Assembly: GCA_022592445.1 (NCBI GenBank)
Contig: JABYQR010000001.1
Location: 517,060 to 581,059, forward strand
Direction: 5' to 3'
Source of the DNA: Cytidiella melzeri
Lineage: Eukaryota > Basidiomycota > Agaricomycetes > Polyporales > Irpicaceae
DNA: 64,000 bases
Shown here: in pieces, positions 41,406 through 64,000 of the stretch
Layout of the letters: each line of letters opens with the position of its first letter
Numbering within the stretch: the first letter of the stretch is position 1
Notes under the pieces: generated by a model
The model's input: only the letters and a program-made list of their open reading frames with translations
Told to the model about the DNA's origin: nothing
The model's database searches: none
Made by a program: the position numbers and the translations under genes

Positions 41406-42125
41406 TGTCGCGGAGCGACTGCTGCTATGCTGATAAACCCTAAACAAGGGTGAAGAGGAGAGGAAGTGGGAGTGGAAGTAGATCTCCAACGACAACAACG
41501 AGGTCAAAGTCGATGATAAGCAGGCAAGCAGGCACAGAGGCCGGATACTGGCAGTGCAAATGACGAAGTTAATATTATGCTTATACTAGGTTACATGGAG
41601 TAACTCACCTGGCAGTGCAAATGACAAAGAGGTCAAGATGCAGAACCAGGGAGGGTAAGGGGTACTATATAAACTGGGTCTGGGTGGTCTGTGCACCAGT
41701 TCCCACACTAGGGACTGGAGTACCTGTGGGACTGGAGTAACAATAGAACAATAAAGAACCAGGGTAACTGTCAAGGACCTGAGTAACTGTCAAGGACCTG
41801 AGTAACTGTCAAGGACCAGGGTACGTAGAACAATAATAGGATAAGAACAATAGAACAATAAGACCTGGGGGAATCCCTGGGGAATCCCCATCAATGGAAG
41901 AGGAACAATAGAACAATAGCCTAGGTTGATCTGGAACCGCTCCAGACTGAGTCTAGGGTTTGGGTCTGGACTATTGATAAATAAGGCAGGATGTCACGTG
42001 ACCCGGGTTAGGGTTAGGTCCGGTAACACTCCTAGCCGGAAAATAAGCACTCTAGATAGGCGCCCAAGGCTGTAAACTTGTGACATTGTTGGAAAAATCC
42101 GGTCTCTGTTGGACTATCCATGTCA
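41406..42125 (-). repeat. Chromovirus A 3' LTR (copy 1)
   Basis: 720 bp, TG...CA ends (plus strand TGTCGCGGAG to CCATGTCA). Differs from the 5' LTR by one base seen by eye (A at 41626 versus G at 56176). Contains a TATATAAA box, the transcript-start decamer AGGTCAAGAT (plus-strand form) and the repeat-bounded intron described for the 62-kb copy. Confidence 0.93.
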
Positions 42126-42140
42126 TTACCCCCCTCCTAA
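42126..42140 (-). promoter_or_regulatory. Polypurine tract of chromovirus A
   Basis: Minus strand TTAGGAGGGGGGTAA abuts the 3' LTR, the normal plus-strand primer position. The identical tract occurs in chromovirus B at 46297-46311. Confidence 0.8.
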
Positions 42141-42143
42141 AAT

Positions 42144-45100
42144 TCATCGCCTCGATGAACTAAGACCAGGGACTCTACCATCTGCCCACTCGAGGTCAGA
42201 TGCAATAGCTTCTGTGATGTTCTCCAACGGTTTCCAAGGAATGGAGTCGAAGAGTGCTTTGGGCAATTTCTGGGGTGCATTGGTATGTCTGGCATGGAAC
42301 TCTGCAATGCTCTCTTTCGCATTGGTCAGATTTACTGCAGGTTCCCACGTTACATCGCCTTCTCCATAGCCTTTCCATTTGACTAGGTACTGCATTTGCT
42401 TCTGATAGATCCGACTGTCTAGGATCTTCTCGACTTCATAGACTTGTTGATCATCTACTATGATCGGTGCTGGTGGTTCTGGTATGAGGCCATTTACTTC
42501 GTTTCCTCAATACGGAGATAGCCGTTCAACGTTGATGTTGTCGTGAATACGATATCCGGATTTGAGTTTGATCTGATACGTATGTTCACCGGTTTTCTGA
42601 AGAACTGTGAATGGACCAAGCTGTCTAGGCCCTAGCTTGTCAGACTGCTGATGTACTTTGACGTTCTTGGAAGACAACCACACGAGGTCCCCTTCCTTGA
42701 AGACTGGAGTAGTTCTGCGGGTGTATGCGGAAGCTTCAGCCATCTTTTCCTTAGATAGACGCGAGGCAGCTTCAGCTTCTGCCCGAACCTGTCTGAGCTT
42801 TTCTAGACGTGCATCTAGGTTCGGCATGCAACCTTGACGACCAATGGGAATGGTAAAATCCGGTAGATACCCGTACATGACTTCAAACGGAGAGTGCTGC
42901 GTAGATGAGTTGACACGAGAGTTGATGGCGAATTCAGCCACTGGGATGTATTCTGCCCAATCATCTTGTCGTTGATCAACGAAGAGTCGTAGAATCTTTT
43001 CTACCTCTTGATTTGTTCTTTCCGTTTGACCATTGGCCTGAGGGTGGTAGGCGGTAGTCATGGCGCCAGTGATGCCTAGCCGTTTGTACAATGCTTGCAT
43101 GACACGAGCTGCAAACTGGGGTCCTCTATCGGATATGAACTGTCGGGGAATGCCGTGGAGCCTGAACACTTCTTTGATGTGAAGGTCGGCTATACCGTCA
43201 GCTGTGACAGTAGACTGGGTTGGGACTACATGTGTTTGCTTGCTGTACAAGTCTGTGTACACGGCAATCATGTCAAATCCCTTACTACGTGGGAGTGGTC
43301 CGACTAAGTCTACACCAACCACCTGCCAAGGTCCGTCTGGTACTTCGATGGGCTGTATTGGGGCCACAGGGTGTTGTGCTGGTTTGGTTCGTTGACACTT
43401 GTCACATCCGAGGACGTATTGTTCTACAAATGATGCCATGCGAGGCCACCAATAATGCCGTGTGACTAGTTCCAAAGTTGCGTGTTTGCCGGGATGTCCT
43501 GCTGGTAACGCATCATGGCATCGTCGTACAATCTCCCTACGAACTTCTCGATCCTTCGGAATGTACAGCTTCCCTTTGTAGTAAACCAGTCCATTGTCTT
43601 CTTCCCACTCAAGTCCGCCGTCAGTCAACTTTCGGGGTCCATCCTTCCTGAGTTTGGCTAGTCCCTGAACTACCTCTGCTTCTCAAATACTGATGTCCTT
43701 AATTCGTGACTCTAACGGATCTGACTTCAGAGTACTTGAGGTGGCTATTGTCTGGAAGTATTCGGGTTTCAGCACAACTTGTTCTTTGTTGTCTGATGCA
43801 TCTAGAACTTCCAGGGTTCTGACTCGGGATAATGGGTCCCCTTGAGTAAGGGTCTTTCCGGGTTTGTGTGTTAACACAAAGTTAAACCGGCTAAGGTACA
43901 AAGACCACCGAGCTTGTCGTCTAGACAGGTCCTGGGCGGTTCGCCAGTACTGCAGATTCTGATGATCTGTGATGATTTCAAAGGGCGCGGGTAATCCTTC
44001 CAGATAGTGACGCCAATCTTCGAGAGCTCTGATGATAGCAAGCATTTCTCGATCATAGATCTCATAGTTCCGTTCCGCTTTGGCCATAGACTGAGACCGA
44101 AACGCTACTGGGTGCCATTGTCCATCCTCTAGTTTCTGCAATAGAACCCCTCCAGTTGCAAAGCCAGACGCATCAACTTCAATACATGTGGGGCGATCGG
44201 GTTCCCATGTGACTAGAATAGGTTCCTGAGTGAACGCATCTTTGAGCATCTGAAAGGCGTTCTGCTGTGCTTCTCCCCACTTCCAAGGTTGGTCTTTCTT
44301 GGTGAGATCGTGAAGAGGACGAGTATGCCGCGCAAAGTCTTTGATGAAACGTCGGTAGAAGTTGGCAAATCCAATGAAGCCGCGTACATCACGGAGGTTC
44401 TGTGGTACCGGCCAGTTGGTGATAGCTTCTATTTTACCTGAGTCCATACGGATCTTTCCGTTACCAATAATTAAACCTAGGTACTCGACTTGTGACTGTT
44501 CAAATTTGCATTTTTCGGGGCGAAGATACAAGTCGTTGGCTTCAAGTCGAGATAGTACCTCATGAACAATTTTCCGGTGTTCCGCAATGTCTGAACTGAA
44601 GACAAGGATGTCATCTAAGTAGACCGAGACCTTTCCTTCCGCGATGAGATCAGCAAAGATGGAATTCATCATTGCTTGAAACGTGGCCGGAGAATTGGTC
44701 ATGCCAAACAACATCACCTTAGGCTCAAACAGCCCTCGGTTTGTCACAAATGCACCCTTCCATTTGTCATTTTCCTTGATCCGAATGTTATGATAACCCC
44801 ATCGTACGTCAAACTTGGTGAAGATTCTGGCTTGACGAAGCCGATTGGTAATATCTGATACCAAGGGGAGTGGGTAGCGGTTTTTGATTGTGATGTCATT
44901 TAACCGTCGATAATCCTGAACAAGCCGGAGCTTGCCGTCCTTCTTCTTGACGAAGAATACCGGTGAGGCCATAGGCGATTTGGAGGGAACAATATATCCT
45001 TTCGCTAGGTTTTCCTCAATAAACTTGTCCAGCTCCGCTTGTTCATTCGGAGACATGGGGTAGACCTTGGATCTGAACATCTTTGGGTTCTCGGTCAGAT

Positions 45101-45608
45101 CAATCGTATGATCCCAGGGCTGATGCTCGGGGAAACGCTGTGATGCTTCTTCTGAGAAGACTTTCTGGTGTCTGCGGTATTCCTCTGGAACCATCTGTTC
45201 AAACGTCCGTTGTTCTTTGGATTGATGGGCTTTAGCCGCGATGTCTGTGGAGTACGTAAAGCTGGCACAGGACCAAAGTTCTTCTTTTGTGTCCTGAATG
45301 ATACCGGCTCAGAGCCAGGCTCGTCTCTGTTTCCGATTGGCTGTGATAGACTGGAAGGGTTCGAAGTCGTCTTCGGCTTCCAATTCCATTTCCCCGGTAG
45401 CCCAATTGATCTTGGGATTTGCTTTGCGAAGCCAGGGTAAACCTAGAATGCAGTCTTCTGGTCCGATGTCCGTGACCAAAAAGGTCGCATTTTCTTTGAT
45501 AGCCCCAACTTGTAGTTCGAGCTCTGCTCTGTGTGTTATACGTCCTCCTTGATTTAGAGTCCCATCGATGTTATGGAGTGGGATCTGTCTTTCTAAGGGG
45601 ACCGTACG
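42144..45608 (-). pseudogene. Chromovirus A pol: protease C-part, RT, RNase H, integrase, chromodomain
   Basis: One continuous minus-strand frame interrupted by TGA at 45309-45311, 43683-43685 and 42507-42509. From the right: the C-terminal half of the aspartic protease (TDIGPEDCILGLPWL), reverse transcriptase with YLDDIL (about 44608-44632), and RNase H (EVDASGFATGG, then YEIYDREMLAI). The integrase has an H2C2 finger (HPGKHATLELVTRHYWW, CDKCQRTK) and all three catalytic residues (VDLVGP, SDRGPQF, QTERTNQ). A C-terminal chromodomain reads VEKILDSR...YLVKWKGYGEGDVTWEP. All three stops are TGA, compatible with CGA to TGA transitions. The first half of the protease is at 52336-52687, beyond chromovirus B. 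It is in the -1 frame relative to gag. Confidence 0.92.
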
Positions 45609-46296
45609 TGTCACGGAGACGGAGCTCAACGTAACGACTAGGGACACGGAGTGGAAGACGACGACGAGGTGGTGGCAGGCGTATAGCACAATGCTCTCAC
45701 CAGCTATAAACCTTATACAGATATCTAGCCCAGTAAAGACCAAGAGGTCGAGATGGGGGGCTAGGAGCGTACATGCAGCAGTATATATAGACTTCAGGGA
45801 CCTGCGCACAGACCATGTTGAGGGCAGGCTTTGCAAGAAGCCGTGTGAACGAAGAACAAAAGAACTACCTAAAGGAGAACAATAGCTATTGTCTAGACCT
45901 TGCCAAGAACTCTACCCGTGAGAGAATCTATCTAAAAGGAGACCAACTATTGTATTCCATTCCCACACCTGTGAGAACATCCTTCCATAAAGAGAACAAT
46001 AAGGAAAGAACAAAAGGAGTCCATGTGGACGTCATTTATGACATCAAACCCTAGCTATGGGCTGAACCATGTGTCTGTAGCCATGTGGTCTTACTTAAGC
46101 TAAGTCACATGCCAGTGTGACGTAGTAGCAAGTAATGTGACCGTGTGGAGCGTCTAAGCCACGTGATACGGGCGCTTATAGACGTGCAAAGGAGTTTATG
46201 CATGAAAGGTTGCAACTGAGCTGCAGCCCGGAGTTTTACAGATAAAAACAAGAGGTAAATTGCGAAAATTAAGGGCTAGTCAGGCCATCCATGACA
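45609..46296 (-). repeat. Chromovirus B 3' LTR
   Basis: 688 bp, plus-strand TGTCACGGAG to CATCCATGACA. Same length as the 5' LTR; two differences noted (CACCAGC versus CACTAGC and GGAGCGT versus GGAGTGT). Confidence 0.95.
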
Positions 46297-46311
46297 TTAC
46301 CCCCCTCCTAA
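46297..46311 (-). promoter_or_regulatory. Polypurine tract of chromovirus B
   Basis: Same 15-bp purine-rich sequence as in chromovirus A, directly next to the 3' LTR, although the LTRs of the two families differ. Confidence 0.8.
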
Positions 46312-46462
46312 AATCGAGCGTCCTCGCGAAGCATCACTGTGCTTGTGGTGATAGAGGTCTTCTACCCGTCTACAGGGATTCAGCAGAATTGCCCCGATTG
46401 TCTAGTCAGAAGGATGCTAGGAAGTTTCTCCCCTTCTGGTGTCGTTGACTTGACGTTACCCG

Positions 46463-47653
46463 TCAGTGTGATGTTCTTGAGATATCCAGACCGATGTGTT
46501 TGCCTTCATCCCAGCTAAGATCATATGTAGATGGATAGATCGTGCGAAGGAAAGCGGGGTCGGTTTGGGTATTGAATTCCCGAAAGTGCGAGCGGAGATC
46601 CGCAAAGAGTAAAGCTTTGATGACCCGGGGCGCTCCGGGGTTTGCTTTGTAGAAGTCGTCAATTGCTTCTTGACTATTCTCGAGGTTTTCTACCGGTTCC
46701 CAGCTATTGTGTCCGTCTGAATACCCTTCCCATTTGACTAGGAATTGTAGCTTCTTCCATCGTCCGTGTAGCCTGCTATCTAGCACTTTCTCGACGACGT
46801 ACTGCTCTTCTCCTTCTATGACGATAGGATCAGGAGGTGGAGATACGTCTTTGCCGTTGTCGTGCCAGGGACTTAGACGGTTGATGTGGAAGACGGGGTG
46901 GATTCGGAGATAGCTGGGTAGATCGAGTTTGTAATCGAGATCGCCAATGCGTTCGATGACCTTGTACGGGCCGAGTTGTCGAGGACCGAGTTTAGGGGTG
47001 GCCTGATGAATCTGGACGTTCTTAGCGTTTAGCCAGACCATGTCCCCTACTTGGAAGACGCGTGGAGAACGCTTCTCAGACTCGTAAAGTTGCTTCATCT
47101 TTTCTTTGCTTAGACGAAGAGCTGCTTCGGTCTCTTTGCGTACTCGAGCCATATTGTCAAGGCGCTCATCGAGTGATGGGATATTGCTTCGCTTGCCGAC
47201 TGGTATGGTGAAGTCGGGGCGATATCCATAGATGACTTCAAACGGTGTTTGTGAATTACCCGCATGTACTCGCGAGTTGAGTGCAAACTCAGCCGCCGGC
47301 AGATGATCGACCCAGTCGTCTTGTCGTTGCTGACAGAATAGACGTAGGTACTGTTCTATATCCTGGTTTTTGCGTTCGACTTTGCCATTTCCTTGCGGAT
47401 GATAGGCGGTCGTAAAACCAGTCTCTATGCCCAGGCGGTGATAGAGCGCACGCATGAAGCGCGCTGCAAACTGGGGTCCTCGGTCAGAGAACACCTTCTT
47501 GGGAATGCCGTGAAGTCGGAATACTTCCTTGTAGTGTAGATCGGCAATCCCCTCAGCGTTAACCTTAGTGGTAGTAGGGATGATGTGCGTTTGATCGGAG
47601 TAATGGTCGACGTAGACCGCGATCGAATCAAATCCCTTAGAGGGTGGTAGCAT
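46463..47653 (-). pseudogene. Chromovirus B integrase core (truncated) with chromodomain
   Basis: Begins at the deletion joint with LPPSKGFDSIAVYVDHYSDQ, so it lacks the H2C2 zinc finger and the first catalytic Asp, which lies upstream of this block in chromovirus A. The second Asp (FSDRGPQFAARF) and the Glu (GKVERKNQDIEQ) are present. The GPY-like region (LGPRQLGPYKVIERI) and a C-terminal chromodomain (VEKVLDSRLHGRWKKLQFLVKWEGYSDG) follow, with the stop at 46463. The chromodomain would direct integration to modified chromatin in an active copy. Confidence 0.9.
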
Positions 47654-49446
47654 CCATCTTCCTTTGATTTCTGGGAGATGATTCCACCGGTCGCATAGCC
47701 CGAGGCATCGACTTCTAGGCGTGTAGGGAGTTCAGGGTCCCAGACTGCCAAGATAGGCTTAGTGGTAAAGGCCTTCTTTAGCAGCGTGAAGGCAGTCTCT
47801 TGTGCTGGACCCCAGACAAACGGTACGTCCTTCTTAGTAAGGTCGTGTAGAGGCCGTGCGTGCTTTGAGAAGTCTTGAATGAAGCGGCGATAGAAGTTGG
47901 CAAACCCGATGAATCCTCTGACTTCTTTGAGGTTCTTGGGTGTGGGCCACGTAGAAACTGCTTGGACTTTGACAGGGTCCATAGCTACTTCGCCGGCGCG
48001 AATGATCAACCCGAGGTATTTGATCTCAGATTTCTCAAACTCGCACTTTTCCGGACGAAGATACAGATCGTGCTGCTGAAGTCGCTCGAGGACTTCATGA
48101 ACAACCTTGCGGTGCTCTGTCAGGTTGTTACTCCAGATCAAGATGTCATCTAGATAGACAGCCACCTTGCCCTCGGCCACGAGGTCGGCGAAGATGTTGT
48201 CCATCAGAGCTTGGAAGGTAGCGGGTGAGTTCGTGAGACCGAAGAACATGACTTTAGGTTCAAAGAGTCCTCGGTTGGTAACGAAAGCCGCTTTGTATTC
48301 ATCTCCTTCTTTGATGCGGACATTGTGATATCCCCAATGAACATCGAACTTGGTGAAGATCTTTGCACCCTTGAGCTTGTTGATAATGTCGGTAGCAAGC
48401 GGTAGTGGGTAACGATTCTTTACAGTGATGTCGTTGAGTTTGCGGTAGTCCTGAATAAGTCGGAGTTTGTTGTCCTTCTTTTTGATGAAGAAGACTGGAG
48501 AAGCCATCGGAGACTTAGAAGGCGTTATGTAACCTTTTGCTAGGTTCTCCTGGATGAATTTGTCAAGCTCGGCTTGTTCATTCAGGGGCATAGGATAAAC
48601 TTTCGATTTGATGGTCTCAGGAGCGTCTGGTTTGAGATCAATCGAATGGTCCCAGGGCTGATGCTGGGGTAGCCGATTAGACTCTTCTTCAGAGAAGACT
48701 TTAGCGTGTCTGTGGTACTCTGATGGAACGATGTCTTCGAAGGAGCGCTGAGCTTTAGCTTTGTTTGCTTCAGCAGCAAGCTTAGTAGAGTAGGTGAAGC
48801 CGGCCATACACCAGACTTCGTCAGTGGTGTCTTGGATAATACCGGCTTTGACCCACTGTCTACGTTCTTTGCGGTTACCATCAACCTTCTGGAAAGGTTC
48901 ATTAGGAGATTCTTCCGAGCCGCTCGGAATCGTCATTTCTCCTTTTTCCCAGTTAACGGTAGGGTTTACGCGCTTGAGCCATGGTAGCCCAAGAATGACG
49001 TCTTCTGGTCCTAAGTCCGTGACAAGAAACTCTGCCTTTTCCGTGTGATCTCCGACTGTGAGTGTGAGGCGAACGAAGTGCGTTAATCCGCCAGCTTTAT
49101 TCTTAGTTCCGTCAATGTTATGCAATGAGATGACCCTTTCGAGCGGGTGCTGAATAATCTTATGCTTCTTGACGAACTGGTGACTGATGAATAAAGCCGT
49201 AGCTCCTGAATCGATCATAGCAGGAACGCGAATGCTTCTATTCAGACCTTTAACTAGTACATGTACACGGAAATGAGACGATAACCGATCTAGCGACGAT
49301 ATAGTACACGAGGAGATAGTAGACGATGGGCATGGAGTAGACGTTGTACACGAAGACGACGAGGCAGAAGACGGGGACGACGAAGGAAGCAAGGACAGGG
49401 TATCTGGGGGACTCGCAGCTGCGGCTGTGTCACGAGTCCGCTTCAA
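47641..49446 (-). pseudogene. Chromovirus B protease and reverse transcriptase, cut at RNase H
   Basis: Ser-rich linker, then aspartic protease (active site MIDSGATALF about 49195-49225; TDLGPEDVILGLPWL), then reverse transcriptase (KSPMASPVFFIKKKD, FTKFDVHWGYHNVRI, YLDDILIW about 48140-48165) and the first RNase H block (LEVDASGYATGG). The coding sense ends at the joint near 47641-47650, after which the frame enters integrase DNA in the wrong phase. The start at 49446 is in the -1 frame just behind the gag stop, so it would be made by frameshifting rather than from its own start. Confidence 0.92.
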
Positions 49447-50692
49447 AAAACCGCATTAATTTCTGCTGCCATCTCATCCATTTGCTTTTTCTGGATGTCA
49501 AGCATGTCCTTGAGCGCAGCAATTTTAGCATCCTTGTCGTTGGACGCGTCTTGCTTGGCTGCAGTAGTAGTGGTCGACGAGGTCGACGAGGTTGCAGCGA
49601 CTTTTTGTCCCTTAGGGACGCCTTGGAGCCGTTTCAGGCAAACTGCCCCCCAGTGACCGGTACCACCGCAGTGGTTGCAGACCGGGTCGTCTGGGTGCTT
49701 TGAATCCCTCTTCTTGTGGCTCTCAGAACCACAAACCGAGCAGCGCTTGCTCATCTCCTTCTTCCATCTCTGGAAGATCTCTTGCTTGCCTAGCCCTGCG
49801 AAGAGCGCATCGAAGGAGGCAGAGAAACGGGAGGCGTCGATCTCCATAGCGTTGGGATCGCGGAAGCCTGCTGGTGGGACTTGCCGTGTCCCGACGAGCT
49901 GTCAACCATGACTTTGCCCGTGCTATTTCGCAGATCGGCGAGCTGAGCGTCAACTGCTTTACACTGATCCTTCAGTGCATCGTAGGTTGTAGCGCGGGTC
50001 TGGAAGTAAGAGACGCGCTGAAGGTACTCCGTACTCAAGCTCGACTTGAGACGGTCGAAAAGGTCCTGCTGGCTCCAGCCAGTGCGAGGGGCCCAGGTCT
50101 CGAACTCCGAGATGTGGGCGGTGAATGTCTTGTTACCCTGCTTCATGCCGGTAACCTTAGTCTTGGCCTCCATGACCGCGTCAATAGGCTCAAATTTTGC
50201 CTTGAAGGCCTCGATAAACGTGTCCCAGTCATTTCCAAATGCTGGTTTGCTATTGGCCAACTCCTCGATGTGAGGGCGAGCCCAGTCGGCAGCGTCGTCC
50301 TGCATAAACGACAAGGCGCTGGTGATGAGTTTGTGAGGATCGAAGATCCTCGCGCCATTATTGTCCACTCGGACCTGGCCTTGCGCGTCTTGCTGGAAGA
50401 ACACTTTTCCTTGATTTTGCGCCCATACTATGAACGCGTGGCGGAAGAGCCGGGCTTCCGACGAGGTTTTCCCCTTGAAGGAGACTGGTTTCTCGACGAT
50501 GCTTCTTTCCCGAGAAACATGGGTAGCAGCGGCAACCGCCGGTGCCTGTGCAGCTGCAAGTGCAGCCACCTGATTGGTAAGGTCTACCATCTTTTGTGTC
50601 AGGACGCCTAACATATTTAAGACGTCTTGCTGGCTCACGTTGGCAACTGGGGCAGCAGGAGCAGCAGGGGCGGCGGGCTGATTGGGATCCAT
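49443..50692 (-). pseudogene. Chromovirus B gag (capsid and zinc knuckle), one frame break
   Basis: ATG at 50690-50692 (MDPNQPAAP). An Ala/Pro-rich start, capsid-like helical region (PVSFKGKTSSEARLFRHAF, SALSFMQDDAADWARPHIEE, FEAFKAKFEPID) and, after a single-base frame break near 49865-49890, a CCHC-type knuckle region (CSVCGSESHKK, CNHCGGTGHWGAVC) and a helical tail ending EINAVF-TGA. This is the first AUG on the predicted transcript. The break is probably a mutation, because chromovirus A gag stays in one frame over the matching NAMEIDA region. Confidence 0.88.
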
Positions 50693-50767
50693 GAGGCGTA
50701 GTATTCGCTATCGAAGAAGTGTATATTTTTTTTCGCAAGACGTGGTGGGCAAAAACTTGTGGACTGT

Positions 50768-51569
50768 CTAGATCCACTCAAAGTAGCTATCACTATTGAC
50801 TACGTTAAGTTGTGCTAGAACTCTATCGTAGTTTTTACGAAGCTGCTTGAAAGAAACCTTCCCAATTGCTTTGCAACCCCAGTCTAGGAGCTGCCACTCG
50901 CGGTCTGCTGTGATGGGTGCAAGATCGTCGACTCGGTTAAGGAAACGATTGACCTTGTTGACGAGGTGGAGCAGGGCGCGACGGTGGTCGGGGTTGGCGC
51001 GGTTCAGGAGTTCTTCAAGCTCTGTGAGAGCTTGCAAGCGAGTGCGGACGGCGGTAAGTTTTGGCTTGAAGATGCCTACGAGATCGACCGGTGACAACTT
51101 CTTGAAGTCGATCAACACCGGCTTTGGTGCAGCGGGGGCGGGAGTTGGTGCAGGGAGCTTTGCTAGTCGCTCTGCAAAGGTGAGCTTGTGGGTCTGTTGC
51201 TCGGCTAAGGTGCGGTCACGCTCCTCAGCAGCTCGTTCTCCGTATGCTCGTGCGGAGGCGCGAAGTTGTCGGTTTTCCTCGTAAGAGGGGACGGTGAGGG
51301 TGATGCCTTTGACAGGCGGCTTCTTGGACACGTACTTCGCGACAGTGACCAGGTCCTTGTCAGACCAACGATGAGGTTGACCACTCTTGCACTTTTCAGC
51401 GAGAGCGTCGAGGAAAGATGGTGGAAGAGACCTCTTGAGCTGAGGCTCAGTGGCAGGGAGGTTCTTAGAAAAACGGGGGCGTGTGTCCTTAGGCACTAGA
51501 CAACGCGCAGGGGGTAGAAACGGACGACGTAAGTGTAGCTCAACGGTATGAGAAGACCGGAGACGTACT
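50768..51569 (-). CDS. Chromovirus B ORF1: conserved leader ORF with splice-created start codon
   Basis: An open frame of 242 codons lies between the 5' LTR and gag and contains no ATG. A predicted intron at 51496-51568 (minus strand GTACGT to TCTAG, 73 nt) joins the A at 51569 to TG at 51495-51494, making ATG directly before codons for PKDTRPRF. Protein features: basic, helical, with LTFAERLAKLP, LIDFKKLSPVDLVGIFKPK and a conserved C-terminus REWQLLDWGCKAIG...SFKQLRKNY. The stop is TAG at 50768-50770; gag ATG follows in the same frame 25 codons later. It shares these blocks with the chromovirus A ORF1 at modest identity, which implies selection on the protein. No domain is recognised; function unknown. 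Confidence 0.75.
51496..51568 (-). other. Predicted leader intron of chromovirus B that creates the ORF1 start
   Basis: Donor GTACGT after ...TTTGACGA, acceptor GTCTAG before TGCCTAAGG. Joining gives an AUG with A at -3. Branch-site candidates of CTTAC or CATAC type lie inside. Not verified by RNA data. Confidence 0.65.
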
Positions 51570-51630
51570 CGTCAAACAGGAATAAACTTTTTAAAACGGT
51601 GGGAATGGGGGACCCAGGGTTTTCACAACA

Positions 51631-51640
51631 ATCTCGACCT
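51631..51640 (-). promoter_or_regulatory. Self-priming PBS of chromovirus B
   Basis: Minus strand AGGTCGAGAT, two bases after the 5' LTR. It is the exact complement of ATCTCGACCT at 51779-51788, which sits about 35 nt after a TATATATA box (51816-51823) and is therefore the likely 5' end of the RNA. This matches Tf1/sushi-type self-priming; no TGG-type tRNA primer site is present. Confidence 0.75.
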
Positions 51641-51642
51641 AA

Positions 51643-52330
51643 TGTCACGGAGACGGAGCTCAACGTAACGACTAGGGACACGGAGTGGAAGACGACGACG
51701 AGGTGGTGGCAGGCGTATAGCACAATGCTCTCACTAGCTATAAACCTTATACAGATATCTAGCCCAGTAAAGACCAAGAGGTCGAGATGGGGGGCTAGGA
51801 GCGTACATGCAGCAGTATATATAGACTTCAGGGACCTGCGCACAGACCATGTTGAGGGCAGGCTTTGCAAGAAGCCGTGTGAACGAAGAACAAAAGAACT
51901 ACCTAAAGGAGAACAATAGCTATTGTCTAGACCTTGCCAAGAACTCTACCCGTGAGAGAATCTATCTAAAAGGAGACCAACTATTGTATTCCATTCCCAC
52001 ACCTGTGAGAACATCCTTCCATAAAGAGAACAATAAGGAAAGAACAAAAGGAGTCCATGTGGACGTCATTTATGACATCAAACCCTAGCTATGGGCTGAA
52101 CCATGTGTCTGTAGCCATGTGGTCTTACTTAAGCTAAGTCACATGCCAGTGTGACGTAGTAGCAAGTAATGTGACCGTGTGGAGTGTCTAAGCCACGTGA
52201 TACGGGCGCTTATAGACGTGCAAAGGAGTTTATGCATGAAAGGTTGCAACTGAGCTGCAGCCCGGAGTTTTACAGATAAAAACAAGAGGTAAATTGCGAA
52301 AATTAAGGGCTAGTCAGGCCATCCATGACA
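51643..52330 (-). repeat. Chromovirus B 5' LTR
   Basis: 688 bp, drives minus-strand transcription. TATATATA at 51816-51823 and predicted start at 51788. Lacks the LTR intron found in the solo LTR at 52916. Confidence 0.95.
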
Positions 52331-52335
52331 GTACG

Positions 52336-52687
52336 TACTCGGTGCCGATTGACAAAGTCTTGACTCAGGAATAAAGCAGTGGCTCCTGAGTCAATCATGG
52401 CTTTGATGCCTTGTTCTCTAAACACTCCCTTGAGCGTGATAGGAACTCGGAAGTGCATGCTAAGCGGGTCTATTTCTGGTACTATGCACGACGACAAGGT
52501 TTCAAAGTAGTTATACATGTTGTTAAATAAAACTGAAGGTTGCGAATCGGGCTGCTGTGCGGGGCGGGTATTTACTACAGGGGAGTTAAAAACTGTGTCC
52601 GTGGGGGAATCATCATTGTCCTCCACTTCTTCTACGTAGGTCTTTCTAAAGGGACTCGAGGGTGCGGTTTCACCTGGAGTCCTTTCT
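52336..52687 (-). pseudogene. Chromovirus A pol start: linker and protease N-half
   Basis: Open frame that overlaps the end of gag in the -1 frame (KGFLERTPGE), then a linker and the protease active site MIDSGATALFLSQDFVNRH. The coding sense stops at the chromovirus B duplication (52331-52335) and resumes at 45608. No ATG of its own is needed if made by frameshift. Confidence 0.88.
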
Positions 52688-54709
52688 AAAAATCCCTTTG
52701 ATTTCCCAGCTGCTTGACTTGGTCCGTGAGCGATGACATCTGCTTCATGATGGCATCGTAGTCAAACGGAGTTGAAGACAAAGAGCTGGCAACGGTTGCG
52801 GCGGGCGGGGTAGATAATGGCCTCGCGGACGAGGACGACGAGGGGGCCGGAGTAGATGGGTCAAACAATGTACTAGCAGCCACCTTTTGTTGCCTAGGTG
52901 GGTATCCAAGGAACCTGTCATGGATGGCCTGACTAGCCCTTAATTTTTGCAATTTACCTCTTGTTTTTATCTGTAAAACTCCAGGCTGCAGCTCAGTTGC
53001 AACCTTCTCTGCACAAACTCCTTTTGCACGTCTATTAAGCGCCCGTATAACGTGGCTTAGACGCTCCACACGGTCACATTACTTGCTACTACGTCACACT
53101 GGCATGTGACTTAGCTTAAGTAAGACCACATGGCTACAGACACATGGTTCAGCCCATAGCTAGGGTTTGACGTCATAGATACTGTCCACATGGGCTCCTT
53201 ATTGTTTTTTCCTTATTGTTCTCTTTATGGAAGGATGTTCTCACAGGTGTGGGAATGGAATACAATAGTTGGTCTCCTTTTAGATAGATTCTCTCACGGG
53301 TAGAGTTCTTGGCAAGGGCTAGACAATAGCTATTGTTCTCCTTTAGGTAGTTCTTTTGTTCTTCGTTCCCATGGCTTCTTGCAAAGCCTGCCCTCAACAT
53401 GGTCTGTGCGCAGGTCCCTGAAGTCTATATAAGCAGCTACATGTACGCTCCTAGCCCCCATCTCGACCTCTTGGTCTTTACTGGGCTAGGTAAGCAACAC
53501 TCCTCTTGTACTACATAGCGAGTAGTATCAATACTAACTTGGTCTTTACTGGGCTAGCAACTTGAACAAAGTCTGATAGCTGGTGAAAGCATTGTGCTCT
53601 ACGCCTGCCACCACCTCCTCGTCGTTTTCCACTTTGTGTCCCTGTTTGTCACGTCGAGCCCCGTCTCCGTGTCAGAACCGGCTTTGGCACACTTGTGTCT
53701 GATGGTTGCCTCCACAATGTCCGCACAGTTCACGATCGTGTTTTCCATCCTTCTTTTGGTGATCCTTGGATCCGCATCCGTAGCATCTACCGTTCATGGC
53801 CTTCATGAAGTCGGCGCGTGTTTTTCCGTTGGGCCCCACTTTTGTAGCATCGATTTCCATTGCATTGGAGTCACGAGGTGCTTGGACGAAGGGAGCCGGG
53901 GACGAGGTGGAGACCGGTGTGGTTTTGAACAGATTGGGGACCGTTCGACCTTGTTCACGAGCTTTCTCTTGAGCTCGTACACGAAGACGATTGTCAATGT
54001 CGGTAGCAACGTTGATTAGATCTACGAGAGTGACGTGTGGCCTTGCAGTATTAACCAGTTCATCCTTGATGGTAGTACTCAGGTGTTCGTAGTACCGATC
54101 ACGAAGGTCTTGTGTCGAGTAACCGGTCCTGTCCATAATCTCCCTGAACCGAGCTGTGTACTCCGGAACCGTTTTCTTGCCTTGCCATAGCTCCCTGAGC
54201 TTGGCTTTGGCATCTACCATTTCATCGACCGGTTCAAATCGTGCTTTAAACGCGGTTCTGAAGTTGTCCCAGTCACCGTTGAAAGCTGCCTGATGACTAG
54301 CAATCAGGTCCATGTGGGGCGTAGCCCAAACTGCTGCATCTTCTGTCATGAATGACAGGGCTGACGAAATCCAGAGGTGGTCCAACCGGGTCTGACCACC
54401 TTGGGCATTATACGGAGACAGCTTCTCGTTGAACTGCGCGTACATTGAGAAAGCAGCTAAAAAGCGACGCGCGTCACTACTAGCATTGCCCTTGAAGCTG
54501 GCGGGTTTTTGTACAACCCTTTCCCGTGACCTATTGTTTACCGGTTGTTGCTGGTTCTGAACCAGTGCTGTGATAGCCTGTGTCAGCTGTTGCTGACCCA
54601 GGAGTAGTGCGTGCAGAAGCTGTTCTGCTGTGGGGGGCGGGGACGGCTCTTGTGTGGGGGCGGGAGGTGCTGCCCTGGAAGCATGCTGAGAGACATTGGT
54701 GGAATCCAT
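52686..54709 (-). pseudogene. Chromovirus A gag (copy 1), interrupted by a solo LTR
   Basis: First in-frame ATG at 54707-54709 (MDSTNVSQHAS). Capsid-like region (KPASFKGNASSDARRFLAAF, ALSFMTEDAAVWATPHMDLI, FRTAFKARFEPVDEM), NAMEIDATKVG and a cysteine-rich knuckle (CYGCGSKDHQKK, CGHCGGNHQTQVC). At CQSRF the frame is cut by the solo LTR (52916-53674) and then continues LGYPPRQQKVAAS to QLGNQRDF-TAG at 52686-52688. Upstream of the ATG the same frame is open for 100 further codons back to the ORF1 stop. Confidence 0.9.
52916..53674 (+). repeat. Solo LTR of chromovirus B family, intron-containing, in gag of chromovirus A
   Basis: TGTCATGGATGG to CCGTGTCA, flanked by perfect duplications GAACC (52911-52915, 53675-53679). 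Opposite in orientation to chromovirus B. 759 bp, longer than the B LTRs mainly because of a 68-nt intron-like insert (53490-53557: GTAAGC, branch site TACTAAC, end CTAG) bounded by 20-bp direct repeats at 53470-53489 and 53538-53557. Confidence 0.92.
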
Positions 54710-55024
54710 CTGGTATTGTTCCTGGGTGAAGGTTCGATCGAAGTCTTCTTCAGGTTCAGGTAGTGGTGGGAGAGATTCAAGAATGCGATCTTCCTGCCAG
54801 TGATGGATGGGTCGATACTGATTTGCGTAACGACCAGGGTATTCTACTCTGTTGTACCGGTTGGGACACGGTTGTACTTCGCAAATCTGATGTCCTTCGT
54901 CTGAATCGTAGCTTTTGTCTCTGACAGTCTGGTTGTTGAAGGCGTGGGGGTAGTTTTCGCAGGGAAGATGATCTCTGGACCAAATGCTACTATTGGGACT
55001 TTGGGAAGCCACACTGTATTCTAT

Positions 55025-55852
55025 TTAGAACGAGATGAAATACTCGTCCGCCCAAACTTTATCTAACCCTTTGAACACCTGCTTGTAGTTCCTCCTTAGA
55101 CCCGTGAAACTGATTCCTCCAATTGCCTTTAATCCCCAATCCAGCAGTTGCCATTCACGATGAGTGATGACAGGGGCCCGGGTTGGTAATTGCTCTAGAA
55201 GCTTCTCTAGCTTCTGTTTCTCCTGCTCAAACTGTCGCTTTGTATCTTTGTGGAGCTGGTGGTACTTTTCAATGGTAGGGAGTATCGACAGACGTTGGAG
55301 TGTGGCAGTGAGCTTGGGAGTGAAGATACCTCGGAGGTCTTCAACAGTGTGCTTGCGGAAGTCGATGAGAGTCGGCTTTGCTGCTATGAGGGCTGCGCTA
55401 GGGTTGGTAGCGGGCCGGACTGGGAAGCGTTCTGCTAACGAAGGCTTCTTAGGGAGATTTGCTAATGCCTCAGCTCGTTCGCGTGCGGTGCGGGCGGCGA
55501 ACTCTTTGGACTCTGCGCGGAGTTTCTCAAACTCCTCTGCTGTTGGGAATCTGTGTGTGAGGGAGGGGCCCTTGGGTTTGCGACGACCGACGTATGAAGC
55601 AATAGCCTTAAGTTCCTTCTCCGTGTACTTGTGACTCTTGCCACGTGCGTGCTCTGCGTCAAGTTGATCAAACACAGCCTTAGGTAAGGCGCGATGGATC
55701 TGGACTTCTTGACGTGCTTGGTTCAGATCCTTGTGCAAAGGATCTGGACGAGCGGTGAAACGGGAGTGGGATTCTTTCGGCACTAAGAATCAACCACGGA
55801 AAGTGAACGAGTTAGCGATCAAGCACGTCAAGACGGACAGCGATGGCTTACT
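55025..55852 (-). CDS. Chromovirus A ORF1 (copy 1): leader ORF with splice-created start
   Basis: 252 codons with no in-frame ATG. A predicted intron at 55783-55851 (minus strand GTAAGC to TCTTAG, 69 nt, branch site GCTAAC) joins A (55852) to TG (55782-55781), giving ATG before PKESHSRF. Features: Lys/Arg/Glu-rich helices (EFAARTARERAEAL), PSLAERFPV, LIDFRKHTVEDLRGIFTPKLTATLQRL, and the C-terminal block HREWQLLDWGLKAIGGISFTGLRRNY. Stop TAA at 55025-55027. Intact here although pol of the same copy carries three stops. Unknown function; no membrane segment or signal peptide seen. Confidence 0.75.
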
Positions 55853-55943
55853 CTCAAACGTAGGGGGGAATAAACTTTTTAAAACTGGGGGGATAGGAAG
55901 ACTTGATCCAAGCTAAGGGCAGTCGTGCCGGTAGCTGTGTGGT

Positions 55944-55953
55944 ATCTTGACCT
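55944..55953 (-). promoter_or_regulatory. Self-priming PBS of chromovirus A (copy 1)
   Basis: Minus strand AGGTCAAGAT, complementary to ATCTTGACCT (minus strand of 56180-56189), which lies about 30 nt after a TTTATATA box near 56216-56223. Confidence 0.72.
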
Positions 55954-55955
55954 AA

Positions 55956-56675
55956 TGTCGCGGAGCGACTGCTGCTATGCTGATAAACCCTAAACAAGGG
56001 TGAAGAGGAGAGGAAGTGGGAGTGGAAGTAGATCTCCAACGACAACAACGAGGTCAAAGTCGATGATAAGCAGGCAAGCAGGCACAGAGGCCGGATACTG
56101 GCAGTGCAAATGACGAAGTTAATATTATGCTTATACTAGGTTACATGGAGTAACTCACCTGGCAGTGCAAATGACGAAGAGGTCAAGATGCAGAACCAGG
56201 GAGGGTAAGGGGTACTATATAAACTGGGTCTGGGTGGTCTGTGCACCAGTTCCCACACTAGGGACTGGAGTACCTGTGGGACTGGAGTAACAATAGAACA
56301 ATAAAGAACCAGGGTAACTGTCAAGGACCTGAGTAACTGTCAAGGACCTGAGTAACTGTCAAGGACCAGGGTACGTAGAACAATAATAGGATAAGAACAA
56401 TAGAACAATAAGACCTGGGGGAATCCCTGGGGAATCCCCATCAATGGAAGAGGAACAATAGAACAATAGCCTAGGTTGATCTGGAACCGCTCCAGACTGA
56501 GTCTAGGGTTTGGGTCTGGACTATTGATAAATAAGGCAGGATGTCACGTGACCCGGGTTAGGGTTAGGTCCGGTAACACTCCTAGCCGGAAAATAAGCAC
56601 TCTAGATAGGCGCCCAAGGCTGTAAACTTGTGACATTGTTGGAAAAATCCGGTCTCTGTTGGACTATCCATGTCA
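55956..56675 (-). repeat. Chromovirus A 5' LTR (copy 1)
   Basis: 720 bp, partner of 41406-42125, with TSD CACTG at 56676-56680. Carries promoter, start decamer and LTR intron. Confidence 0.93.
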
Positions 56676-61432: not shown

Positions 61433-62292
61433 TGACATGGATAGTCCAACAGAGACCGGATTTTTCCAACAATGTCACCAGTTTACAGCCTTAGGCGCCT
61501 ATCTAGAGCGCTTATTTTCCTGCTAGGAATGTTACCGGACCTAACCCTAACCCGGGTCACGTGACATCCTGCCTTATTTATCAATAGTCCAGACCCAAAC
61601 CCTAGACTCAATCTGGAGCGGTTCCAGATCAACCTAGGCTATTGTTCTATTGTTCTCCTTCCATTGTTAGGGATTCCCCAGGGATTCCCCAGGGATTTCC
61701 CCAGTTCTTATTGTCTCATTGTCTTTCGTCTATTGTCTTCTGTCTATTGTTAGGGATTCCCCAGGGATTCCCCAGTTTCTATTGTTCTATTGTTCCAGTT
61801 TCTATTGTTCTATTGTTCCAGTTTCTATTGTTCTATTGTTCCAGTTTCTATTGTTCTATTGTTCCAGTTTCTATTGTTCTATTGTCTTATTGTTCTAGCT
61901 CTATTGTTCTACGTACCCTGGTCTTTGACAGCTACCCTGGTCCCTTATTGTTCTATTGTTACTCCAGCCCCACAGTTACTCCAGTCCCTAGTGTGGGAAC
62001 TTGTGCACAGACCACCCAGCCACAGTATATATAGTAGCCCTTACCCTCCCTAGCTCTGCATCTTGACCTCTCTGTCATTTGCACTGCTAGGTGAGTTACT
62101 GCATGTAACTTAGTATCATATCTTATTAACTCTGTCATTTGCACTGCTAGTATCCGGCCTCTGTGCCTGCTTGCCTGCTTATCATCGACTTTGACCTTGC
62201 TGTCGTCGTTGGAGATCCCCTTCCTCTTCCCCTTCACATCTACTTCACCCTTGTTTAGGGTTTATCAGTCTATCAGCAGTCGCTCCGCGACA
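61433..62292 (+). repeat. Chromovirus A 5' LTR (copy 2), expanded
   Basis: 860 bp versus 720 bp in copy 1. The extra length is mainly a tandem array with a 23-bp unit (CCAGTTTCTATTGTTCTATTG plus TT) repeated about five times around 61775-61890 and duplicated GGGATTCCCCA segments. TATATATA at 62026-62033 and predicted RNA start ATCTTGACCT at 62060-62069. Confidence 0.92.
62091..62150 (+). other. Predicted LTR intron bounded by 21-bp direct repeats
   Basis: GTGAGT donor at 62091, TTATTAAC branch-like site at 62123-62130, CTAG acceptor at 62150. The last 21 bases of the upstream exon (62070-62090, ending TTTGCACTGCTAG) are repeated as the last 21 bases of the intron (62130-62150). The same structure is in copy 1. 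The intron holds an ATGTAA start-stop. Confidence 0.65.
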
Positions 62293-62294
62293 TT

Positions 62295-62304
62295 AGGTCA
62301 AGAT
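62295..62304 (+). promoter_or_regulatory. Self-priming PBS of chromovirus A (copy 2)
   Basis: AGGTCAAGAT, two bases after the LTR, complementary over 10 nt to the predicted RNA start at 62060-62069. Confidence 0.75.
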
Positions 62305-62396: not shown

Positions 62397-63224
62397 AGTA
62401 AGCCATCGCCGTCCGTCTTGACGTGCTTGATTGCTAACTCGTTCACTTTCCGTGGTTGATTCTTAGTGCCGAAAGAATCCCACTCCCGTTTTACTGCTCG
62501 CCCAGATCCTTTGCATAAGGATCTGAACCAAGCGCGTCGAGAAGTCCAGATCCACCGTGCCCTACCTCAGGCCGTGTTTGATCAACTCGACGCAGAGCAC
62601 GCACGTGGCAAGAGTCACAAGTACACGGAGAAGGAACTCAAGGCTATTGCCTCCTACGTCGGTCGTCGTAAACCCAAGGGTTCCGCCCTTACACACAGAT
62701 TCCCCACAGTAGAGGAGTTTGAAAAACTCTGCGCCGAGTCCAAAGAGTTCGCCGCCCGCACCGCACGCGAACGAGCCGAGGCATTAGCAAGTCTCCCTAA
62801 GAAGCCTTCGTTAGCAGAACGCTTCCCAGTCCAGCCCGCTACCAACCCTAGCGCAGCCCTTATAGCAGCTAAGCCGACTCTCATCGACTTCCGCAAGCAC
62901 ACTGTTGAAGACCTTCGCGGTATCTTCACTCCCAAGCTCACCGCCACCCTCCAACGTCTGTCGATCCTCCCCACCATCGACAAATACCACCAGCTCCACA
63001 AAGATACAAAGCGACAGTTTGAGCAGGAGAAACAGAAGCTAGAGAAGCTTCTAGAGCAATTACCAACCCGGGCCCCTGTCATCACTCATCGTGAATGGCA
63101 ACTGCTGGATTGGGGATTAAAGGCAATTGGAGGAATCAGTTTCACGGGTCTAAGGAGGAACTACAAGCAGGTGTTCAAAGGGTTAGATAAAGTTTGGGCG
63201 GACGAGTATTTCATCTCGTTCTAA
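62397..63224 (+). CDS. Chromovirus A ORF1 (copy 2): leader ORF with splice-created start
   Basis: Same 252-codon protein as at 55025-55852 with about a dozen substitutions and no in-frame ATG. Predicted intron 62398-62466 (GTAAGC, branch site GCTAAC at 62433-62438, end TCTTAG) joins A (62397) to TG (62467-62468), forming ATG before PKESHSRF, with G at -3. The stop is TAA at 63222-63224; the following frame is open in the same phase (IEYSVASQS...) up to the gag ATG at 63540. No stop within ORF1 in either copy. Confidence 0.75.
62398..62466 (+). other. Predicted leader intron creating the ORF1 start (copy 2)
   Basis: 69 nt, same length and signals as 55783-55851. Donor follows TTTGAGA; acceptor precedes TGCCGAAAG. 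Confidence 0.7.
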
Positions 63225-63539
63225 ATAGAATACAGTGTGGCTTCCCAAAGTCCCAATAGTAGCATTTGGTCCAGAGATCATCTTCCCTGCGAAAACTACC
63301 CCCACGCCTTCAACAACCAGACTGTCAGAGACAAAAGCTACGATTCAGACGAAGGACATCAGATTTGCGAAGTACAGCCTTGTCCAAACTGTTACAACAG
63401 AATCACATATCCGGGTCGTTTTGCAAACCAGTATCGGCCTATTCATCACTGGCAAGAGGATCATATACTTGAATCTCTCCCACCCCTGCCTGAAACAGAA
63501 GAAGATTTTGATCGCACCTTCACGCAGGATCAATATCAG

Positions 63540-64000
63540 ATGGATTCCACCAACGTCTCTCAGCATGCTTCCAGGGCAGCAACCCCGGCCCCGGTGCAAG
63601 AATCATCTCCACCTTCCACAGCAGAACAGCTTCTGCACGCACTACTCCTCAGTCAGCAACAGCTGACACAAGCTATCACAGCGCTGGTTCAGAACCAGCA
63701 ACCGGTCAACAACAGGTCACGGGAAAGGGTGGTAGAGAAACCCGCCAGTTTCAAAGGCAATGCAAGTAGTGACGCGCGTCGCTTTTTGGCCGCCTTCTCC
63801 ATGTACGCACAGTTTAACGAGAAGCTGTCTCCGTACAATGCCCAAGGAGGTCAGACCCGGTTGGACCATCTCTGGATCTCGTCAGCCCTGTCATTTATGA
63901 CAGAAGATGCGGCAGTTTGGGCTACGCCCCATATGGATTTGATTGCCAGCCATCAAATGGCATTCAACGGTGACTGGGATGACTTCAGGACAGCATTCAA
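63540..64000 (+). CDS. Chromovirus A gag (copy 2), partial at window end
   Basis: ATG at 63540 (MDSTNVSQHAS), the first AUG in gag frame after the leader. Matches copy 1 through KPASFKGNASSDARRFLAAF and ALSFMTEDAAVWATPHMDLI and stays open to 64000. An in-frame extension without ATG runs back to 63225. Confidence 0.85.
   Translation, partial: MDSTNVSQHASRAATPAPVQESSPPSTAEQLLHALLLSQQQLTQAITALVQNQQPVNNRSRERVVEKPASFKGNASSDARRFLAAFSMYAQFNEKLSPYNAQGGQTRLDHLWISSALSFMTEDAAVWATPHMDLIASHQMAFNGDWDDFRTAF

Follow-up and report, generated by a model that had tools for sequence, protein, structure and literature searches.

A leader intron whose removal would assemble the ORF1 start codon, and which probably acts as a translation switch, in two retrotransposon families of Cytidiella melzeri

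A stretch of 64,000 nucleotides from Cytidiella melzeri (contig JABYQR010000001.1, positions 517,060 to 581,059; hereafter the window, in whose positions all coordinates are given) contains three retrotransposon copies with a reading frame upstream of gag, ORF1, in which there is no in-frame ATG. The question raised by this locus is how such a frame could be translated. It is suggested here that a short leader intron probably functions as a translation switch in two chromodomain-type LTR retrotransposon families, with ORF1 made from RNA in which the intron has been spliced, and Gag-Pol and genomic RNA supplied by RNA in which it is retained.

Copy 1 is a family A element on the reverse strand (41406-56675), with 99.86% identity between its two LTRs of 720 nt. 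Nested in it on the same strand is a family B element (45609-52334) with LTRs 99.57% identical over 692 nt, while copy 2, again of family A but on the forward strand, begins at 61433 and is interrupted by the window end. Pfam matches to gag, reverse transcriptase, RNase H and integrase were obtained in both the A and B segments, and to protease in the B segment only; families A and B are Ty3-type elements. In family B the integrase is followed by a chromodomain (PF00385, E 4e-15), which was seen in this family only, the scanned family A segment ending at an SH3 domain with a Tf2-1-like match. A further B-type LTR lies on the opposite strand within copy 1 (52915-53492, with a U5 intron donor at 53483-53495). 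A 414-nt inverted match (92%) was also found between 19-432 and 47641-48054 in the B pol region, so that the edge of the window may hold a further B-type element or part of one.

In copy 2 the first exon ends with A at 62397 and the second opens with TG at 62467-62468, followed by CCG AAA GAA, the 69-nt intron between them reading GTAAGC...TTCTTAG. The corresponding bases in copy 1 are A at 55852 and TG at 55782-55781, again around an intron of 69 nt, and in the family B copy A at 51569 and TG at 51495-51494, then CCT AAG GAC, around a 73-nt intron reading GTACGT...TCTAG. All three copies open their second exon with TG-CCN-AAR after the exon-1 A, and the DNA of all three has GTG as the in-frame codon there. 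These joints, and the purine at -3 of the assembled ATG, agree with the first-pass annotation, which had also claimed that the arrangement is common to two families despite different introns; the fetched copies of both do preserve it, although the intron sequence differs between the families. The further claim that ORF1 has no other in-frame ATG, made of the window copies, holds for all three; among the fetched ones there is an exception to the lack of a genomic ATG, the B copy L034, in which the loss of one acceptor base has created an ATG in the DNA with most of the intron retained. That the A/TG arrangement is more than chance is confirmed by its conservation, by intron-less copies with the predicted joint and by purifying selection on ORF1. 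The features concerned are collected in Table 1.

Table 1. Positions in the window of the features discussed, with the basis on which each was placed
Feature	Position	Strand	Basis or remark
5' LTR, copy 1	55956..56675	-	other LTR 41406-42125
5' LTR, family B element	51643..52334	-	other LTR 45609-46300
5' LTR, copy 2	61433..62292	+	ends by matches to copy 1 LTRs
TATA-like box, copy 2	62028..62034	+	sequence
Inferred RNA 5' end, copy 2	62060..62069	+	complementary to primer site
Putative U5 intron holding ATG-TAA at 62103, copy 2	62091..62150	+	sequence
Primer site AGGTCAAGAT adjoining LTR, copy 2	62295..62304	+	complementarity
Primer site AGGTCGAGAT, family B	51631..51640	-	pairs with inferred RNA 5' end 51779-51788
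ORF1 leader intron, copy 2 (family A)	62398..62466	+	sequence; exact loss in L031
Likely branch site CTAAC, copy 2	62434..62438	+	by eye; many other A copies read CTGAC
ORF1 leader intron, copy 1 (family A)	55783..55851	-	sequence
ORF1 leader intron, family B	51496..51568	-	sequence
ORF1 exon, copy 2, 251 codons after assembled ATG; stop ends 63224	62467..63224	+	reading frame, selection
ORF1 exon, copy 1 (family A)	55025..55782	-	reading frame
ORF1 exon, family B, 241 codons after assembled ATG	50768..51495	-	reading frame, selection
ATG-free pre-gag stretch, open in gag frame, copy 2	63225..63539	+	reading frame, selection
Pre-gag stretch, copy 1; gag ATG 54709	54710..55024	-	reading frame
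gag start, copy 2 (window end interrupts)	63540..64000	+	reading frame
gag ORF, family B; first ATG past inferred RNA start in unspliced RNA	49790..50692	-	reading frame, Pfam

ORF1 is under purifying selection, and this selection is specific to its frame. Differences between copies fall chiefly at third positions of the ORF1 frame, and crude omega is 0.09 over 27 family A copies and 0.13 over 28 family B copies, against about 2 to 3.4 in the other two frames. The A and B forms are about 40% identical to each other. Lying upstream of gag and giving no Pfam match at E 0.1, ORF1 does not have the character of an envelope gene; among PDB sequences it gave matches only above E 1.

The strongest support for the splice-built start is given by copies elsewhere in the genome (49.7 Mb in 731 contigs), which was searched for copies with and without the leader intron by means of exact-match anchors, so that the counts are lower bounds. 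Family B is represented by at least 212 copies with a gap of 60-90 nt between the anchors and at least seven with a gap of 0-30 nt, and family A by at least 102 copies at 56-86 nt and at least one at 0-30 nt. Splicing at positions that do not generate AUG had been named beforehand as the observation that would count against a splice-built start. All eight short forms (seven B, one A) are the exact A/TG product, six of those in B reading GATG and one AATG; by exact anchors no other joint occurred among gaps of 0-30 nt in either family, and reversed-pattern controls gave no short forms. The one intron-less A copy (L031) retains its 5' LTR, U5 intron and primer site. The existence of rare copies that lack exactly this intron suggests that splicing really happens, and they are best read as derived from reverse-transcribed spliced RNA, which would be their simplest source. 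A second acceptor after the ORF1 stop for the same donor (ACAG/TGTGG, family A) was considered and rejected, as a single search for its junction, allowing up to 3 mismatches, returned no match; such a product would, besides, not be in frame with gag.

If the intron-less copies were ancestral, or had arisen by deletion of DNA, they would say nothing about splicing. Two of the eight, L064 and L065, do have other intron-less copies as their nearest fetched copies, but for the remaining six the nearest is intron-bearing (in a comparison with 28 B and 29 A copies that have the intron), the loss is exact from GT to AG in both families, and in family B, where the intron ends carry an AGT micro-repeat, deletion by way of this repeat would have given AGTG and not ATG. 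An origin of this kind seems to us extremely improbable. In the tree L063 pairs with L049 (0.985), L067 with L056 (0.84) and L065 with L066 (0.98), L062 falls with the group of the window copy (0.76), and L064 and L068 have long branches. Because of these placements, and of the nearest copies with an intron, it is likely that the intron was lost several times independently.

A point absent from the first-pass annotation is that almost no ATG occurs in any frame ahead of gag. Pooled over both families, the region from ORF1 to gag has 11 ATG in 52 kb, against 641 in 38 kb past the gag ATG. Taken separately, family A has 6 in 27,845 nt from the ORF1 start to the gag ATG and 414 in 17,400 nt downstream (26 of 30 loci), and family B 5 in 24,524 nt and 227 in 20,300 nt (29 of 30 loci), the downstream region extending at most 700 nt past the gag ATG at each locus. 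The triplet CAT is not similarly depleted (353 in A and 249 in B upstream; 262 and 307 downstream). In 23 of 27 A copies and 25 of 28 B copies, each set drawn from 30 loci, ORF1 itself contains no ATG whatever the frame; copies 1 and 2 have one off-frame ATG in common (55154 and 63095). From base composition 13 ATG would be expected in the leader and ORF1 of the window B copy (1,095 nt) and 17.5 in copy 2 from just past the U5 intron to gag (1,388 nt), and these regions contain none and one. The leader before the donor is without any ATG in 29 of 34 B copies (the others being L041, L043, L051, L054 and L068, the last with its start motif 1,247 nt upstream), and the U5 ATG is present in 29 of 30 A leaders. 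Synonymous-codon shuffles point to weak avoidance of off-frame ATG (P 0.24 for copy 2, 0.065 for L002 and 0.074 for B), which means that missing Met codons carry much of the signal.

In the switch proposed here, a single transcript would be read in two ways. Removal of the intron would join A to TG and so build the ORF1 start codon, with its purine at -3, and ORF1, whose frame precedes gag, would be produced as an accessory protein. With the intron retained, the RNA would have no in-frame AUG for ORF1, and ribosomes scanning it would arrive at the AUG of gag; in family A they would first pass the ATG-TAA within the putative U5 intron. Since hardly any ATG occurs in any frame between the ORF1 start and gag, gag should be translated from unspliced RNA, which would thus provide Gag-Pol as well as genomic RNA. 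The central reading of the first-pass annotation, in which ORF1 takes its start from spliced RNA only, is supported, and from the missing ATG we infer that unspliced RNA is silent for it; the assignment of each RNA to its protein, the translation of ORF1 and any regulation of splicing are likewise proposed.

It may be argued that the A/TG joint is real and yet controls nothing: splicing would be constitutive, ORF1 would be made from most of the RNA, gag would be reached by reinitiation or leaky scanning, and the rare unspliced RNA would merely be packaged. The introns are short with good splice sites, and in family B the gag ATG stands just 42-234 nt past the ORF1 stop, both of which would suit this account. 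We consider it unlikely, since the scarcity of ATG in all frames over ORF1 would be useless if ORF1 were always translated first, and since only 8 of the 322 matched A and B copies are intron-less, a share that fits genomic RNA being mostly unspliced when copied, although poor replication of intron-less copies could also produce it.

One coding region falls outside a simple splicing switch and counts against the explanation preferred here. In family A the 315 nt preceding gag are in frame with both ORF1 and gag, have an omega of about 0.09 (21 copies) and contain no stop in 18 of the 21. Those B copies that have a long spacer carry a similar stretch with, by eye, a QPCPNRY-like motif, and in the other B copies, including that of the window, it is not kept open. 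Expression could occur by readthrough of the ORF1 stop or from a near-cognate start.

Relatives of ORF1 bear on the same question. None came from a protein search whose only query was family A ORF1, or from a scan of viral contigs, but with an alignment of A and B ORF1 as query, scoring the 8000 best-sharing candidates, and then with P0002, eight relatives were obtained (P0001-P0008). Family B ORF1 is, by eye, nearly identical along most of its length to a predicted Cytidiella melzeri protein; a supposed third family, L069, was rejected as a decayed family A copy. In six ORF1 families (A, B, P0002, P0003, P0004 and P0007; 27-43% identical) the first residues are followed by 1,467 others without a single Met, where 26.9 would be expected at the rate of gag and pol of the same elements; the formal P of 2e-12 is too small owing to shared ancestry. 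P0001, P0005, P0006 and P0008 were left out of this count, P0005 and the ORF1-matching part of P0008 having no Met, P0001 having one in the C-terminal part where, by eye, the match to ORF1 ends, and P0006 (143 aa) being annotated from a Met within the ORF1 body. P0008 also carries a Met in frame some way ahead of the Pro, perhaps a true start and perhaps one chosen in annotation. Homologues with an ordinary genomic ATG had been put forward as evidence that would tell against the splice-built start; P0008 and P0006 speak against an absolute rule.

The residue before the Pro is V in P0004, P0005 and P0008, as expected from a genomic AG/TG acceptor, and M in P0002, P0003 and P0007. P0002 and P0003 begin MPK, and P0008 of Trametopsis cervina reads ...GLVPKASSS where P0007, 94% identical to it, begins MPKASSS. 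The M-starting forms could derive from spliced RNA, or could be GTG starts written as M by the gene-finder. It is conceivable that a near-cognate codon such as the GTG of the joint starts ORF1 on unspliced RNA and that A/TG is incidental, and the annotation of P0004 and P0005 from that very V is in keeping with the in-frame GTG of the genome. This seems very unlikely, as all intron-less copies have ATG and as the conserved intron ends and the missing ATG would be left unaccounted for.

In self-priming chromoviruses of the Tf1/sushi type the 5' end of the RNA is complementary to a site just past the LTR. Families A and B resemble them in this complementarity and in the Tf2-1-like SH3 match. The predicted RNA 5' end and the primer site are complementary at 10 of 10 bases in 29 of 30 A copies and 28 of 33 B copies, and the 10-nt pairs show compensating change between the families, all of which is consistent with Tf1-type self-priming. 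To our knowledge Tf1 has neither an ORF upstream of gag nor a leader intron. A second intron-like stretch lies in U5 of both families, running from GTGAGT or GTAAGC to CTAG between direct repeats (in B, for example, L033 and L049), and it is exactly missing from some copies, among them the window B element and L013, and from 20 B-type places in the genome. We have set this aside as added proof of splicing, as recombination between the flanking repeats yields the same product.

What is proposed amounts to a simple and testable rule by which a fungal retrotransposon could choose, from one promoter, between an accessory protein and Gag with genomic RNA. As the genome keeps its own record of splicing, no RNA is needed to examine other fungal assemblies for this rule. 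There is a warning for annotation too, in that genes without a genomic start codon may be missed or wrongly started.

The introns of Ogre elements are placed differently from the leader intron of families A and B. These plant elements are Ty3/gypsy retrotransposons with extra ORFs and functional introns, and are similar in this to both families, but the available excerpts of the reports do not describe a splice-built start codon (PMC12786077, PMC6431247). Closer in mechanism are the Drosophila endogenous retroviruses of the springer subclade, in which, according to the available part of the account, the main env exon is spliced from an AU dinucleotide (PMC12992720). There too the start codon of an accessory ORF is assembled by splicing, a conclusion drawn here from genomic copies and not from RNA; the differences are that env is made from a sub-genomic RNA, while the start codon here is split as A/UG and belongs to a nearly AUG-free ORF upstream of gag (PMC12992720). 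In Caenorhabditis elegans the Cer1 protein CERV is described, in the excerpts at hand, as made from spliced retrotransposon RNA and needed for export of the unspliced genomic RNA, with 517 aa, an mRNA of five exons and first exons in the gag frame (PMC10309623). The proposed origin of ORF1 from spliced RNA is alike. A CERV-like role of ORF1 in RNA export is a guess by analogy. It is unlikely, though worth stating, that a chromovirus lineage across mushroom-forming fungi would keep a gene of about 250 codons nearly AUG-free so that its RNA is read two ways, with ORF1 promoting export or retention of unspliced RNA in a feedback like that of Rev or CERV. In our search of the open-access literature, no retrotransposon of fungi emerged whose start codon is built by splicing. 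The splice-built start as such has a precedent in the springer elements, as far as the available text describes them (PMC12992720), and what looks new is its occurrence in a fungus, ahead of gag and at the opening of an ORF with hardly any AUG.
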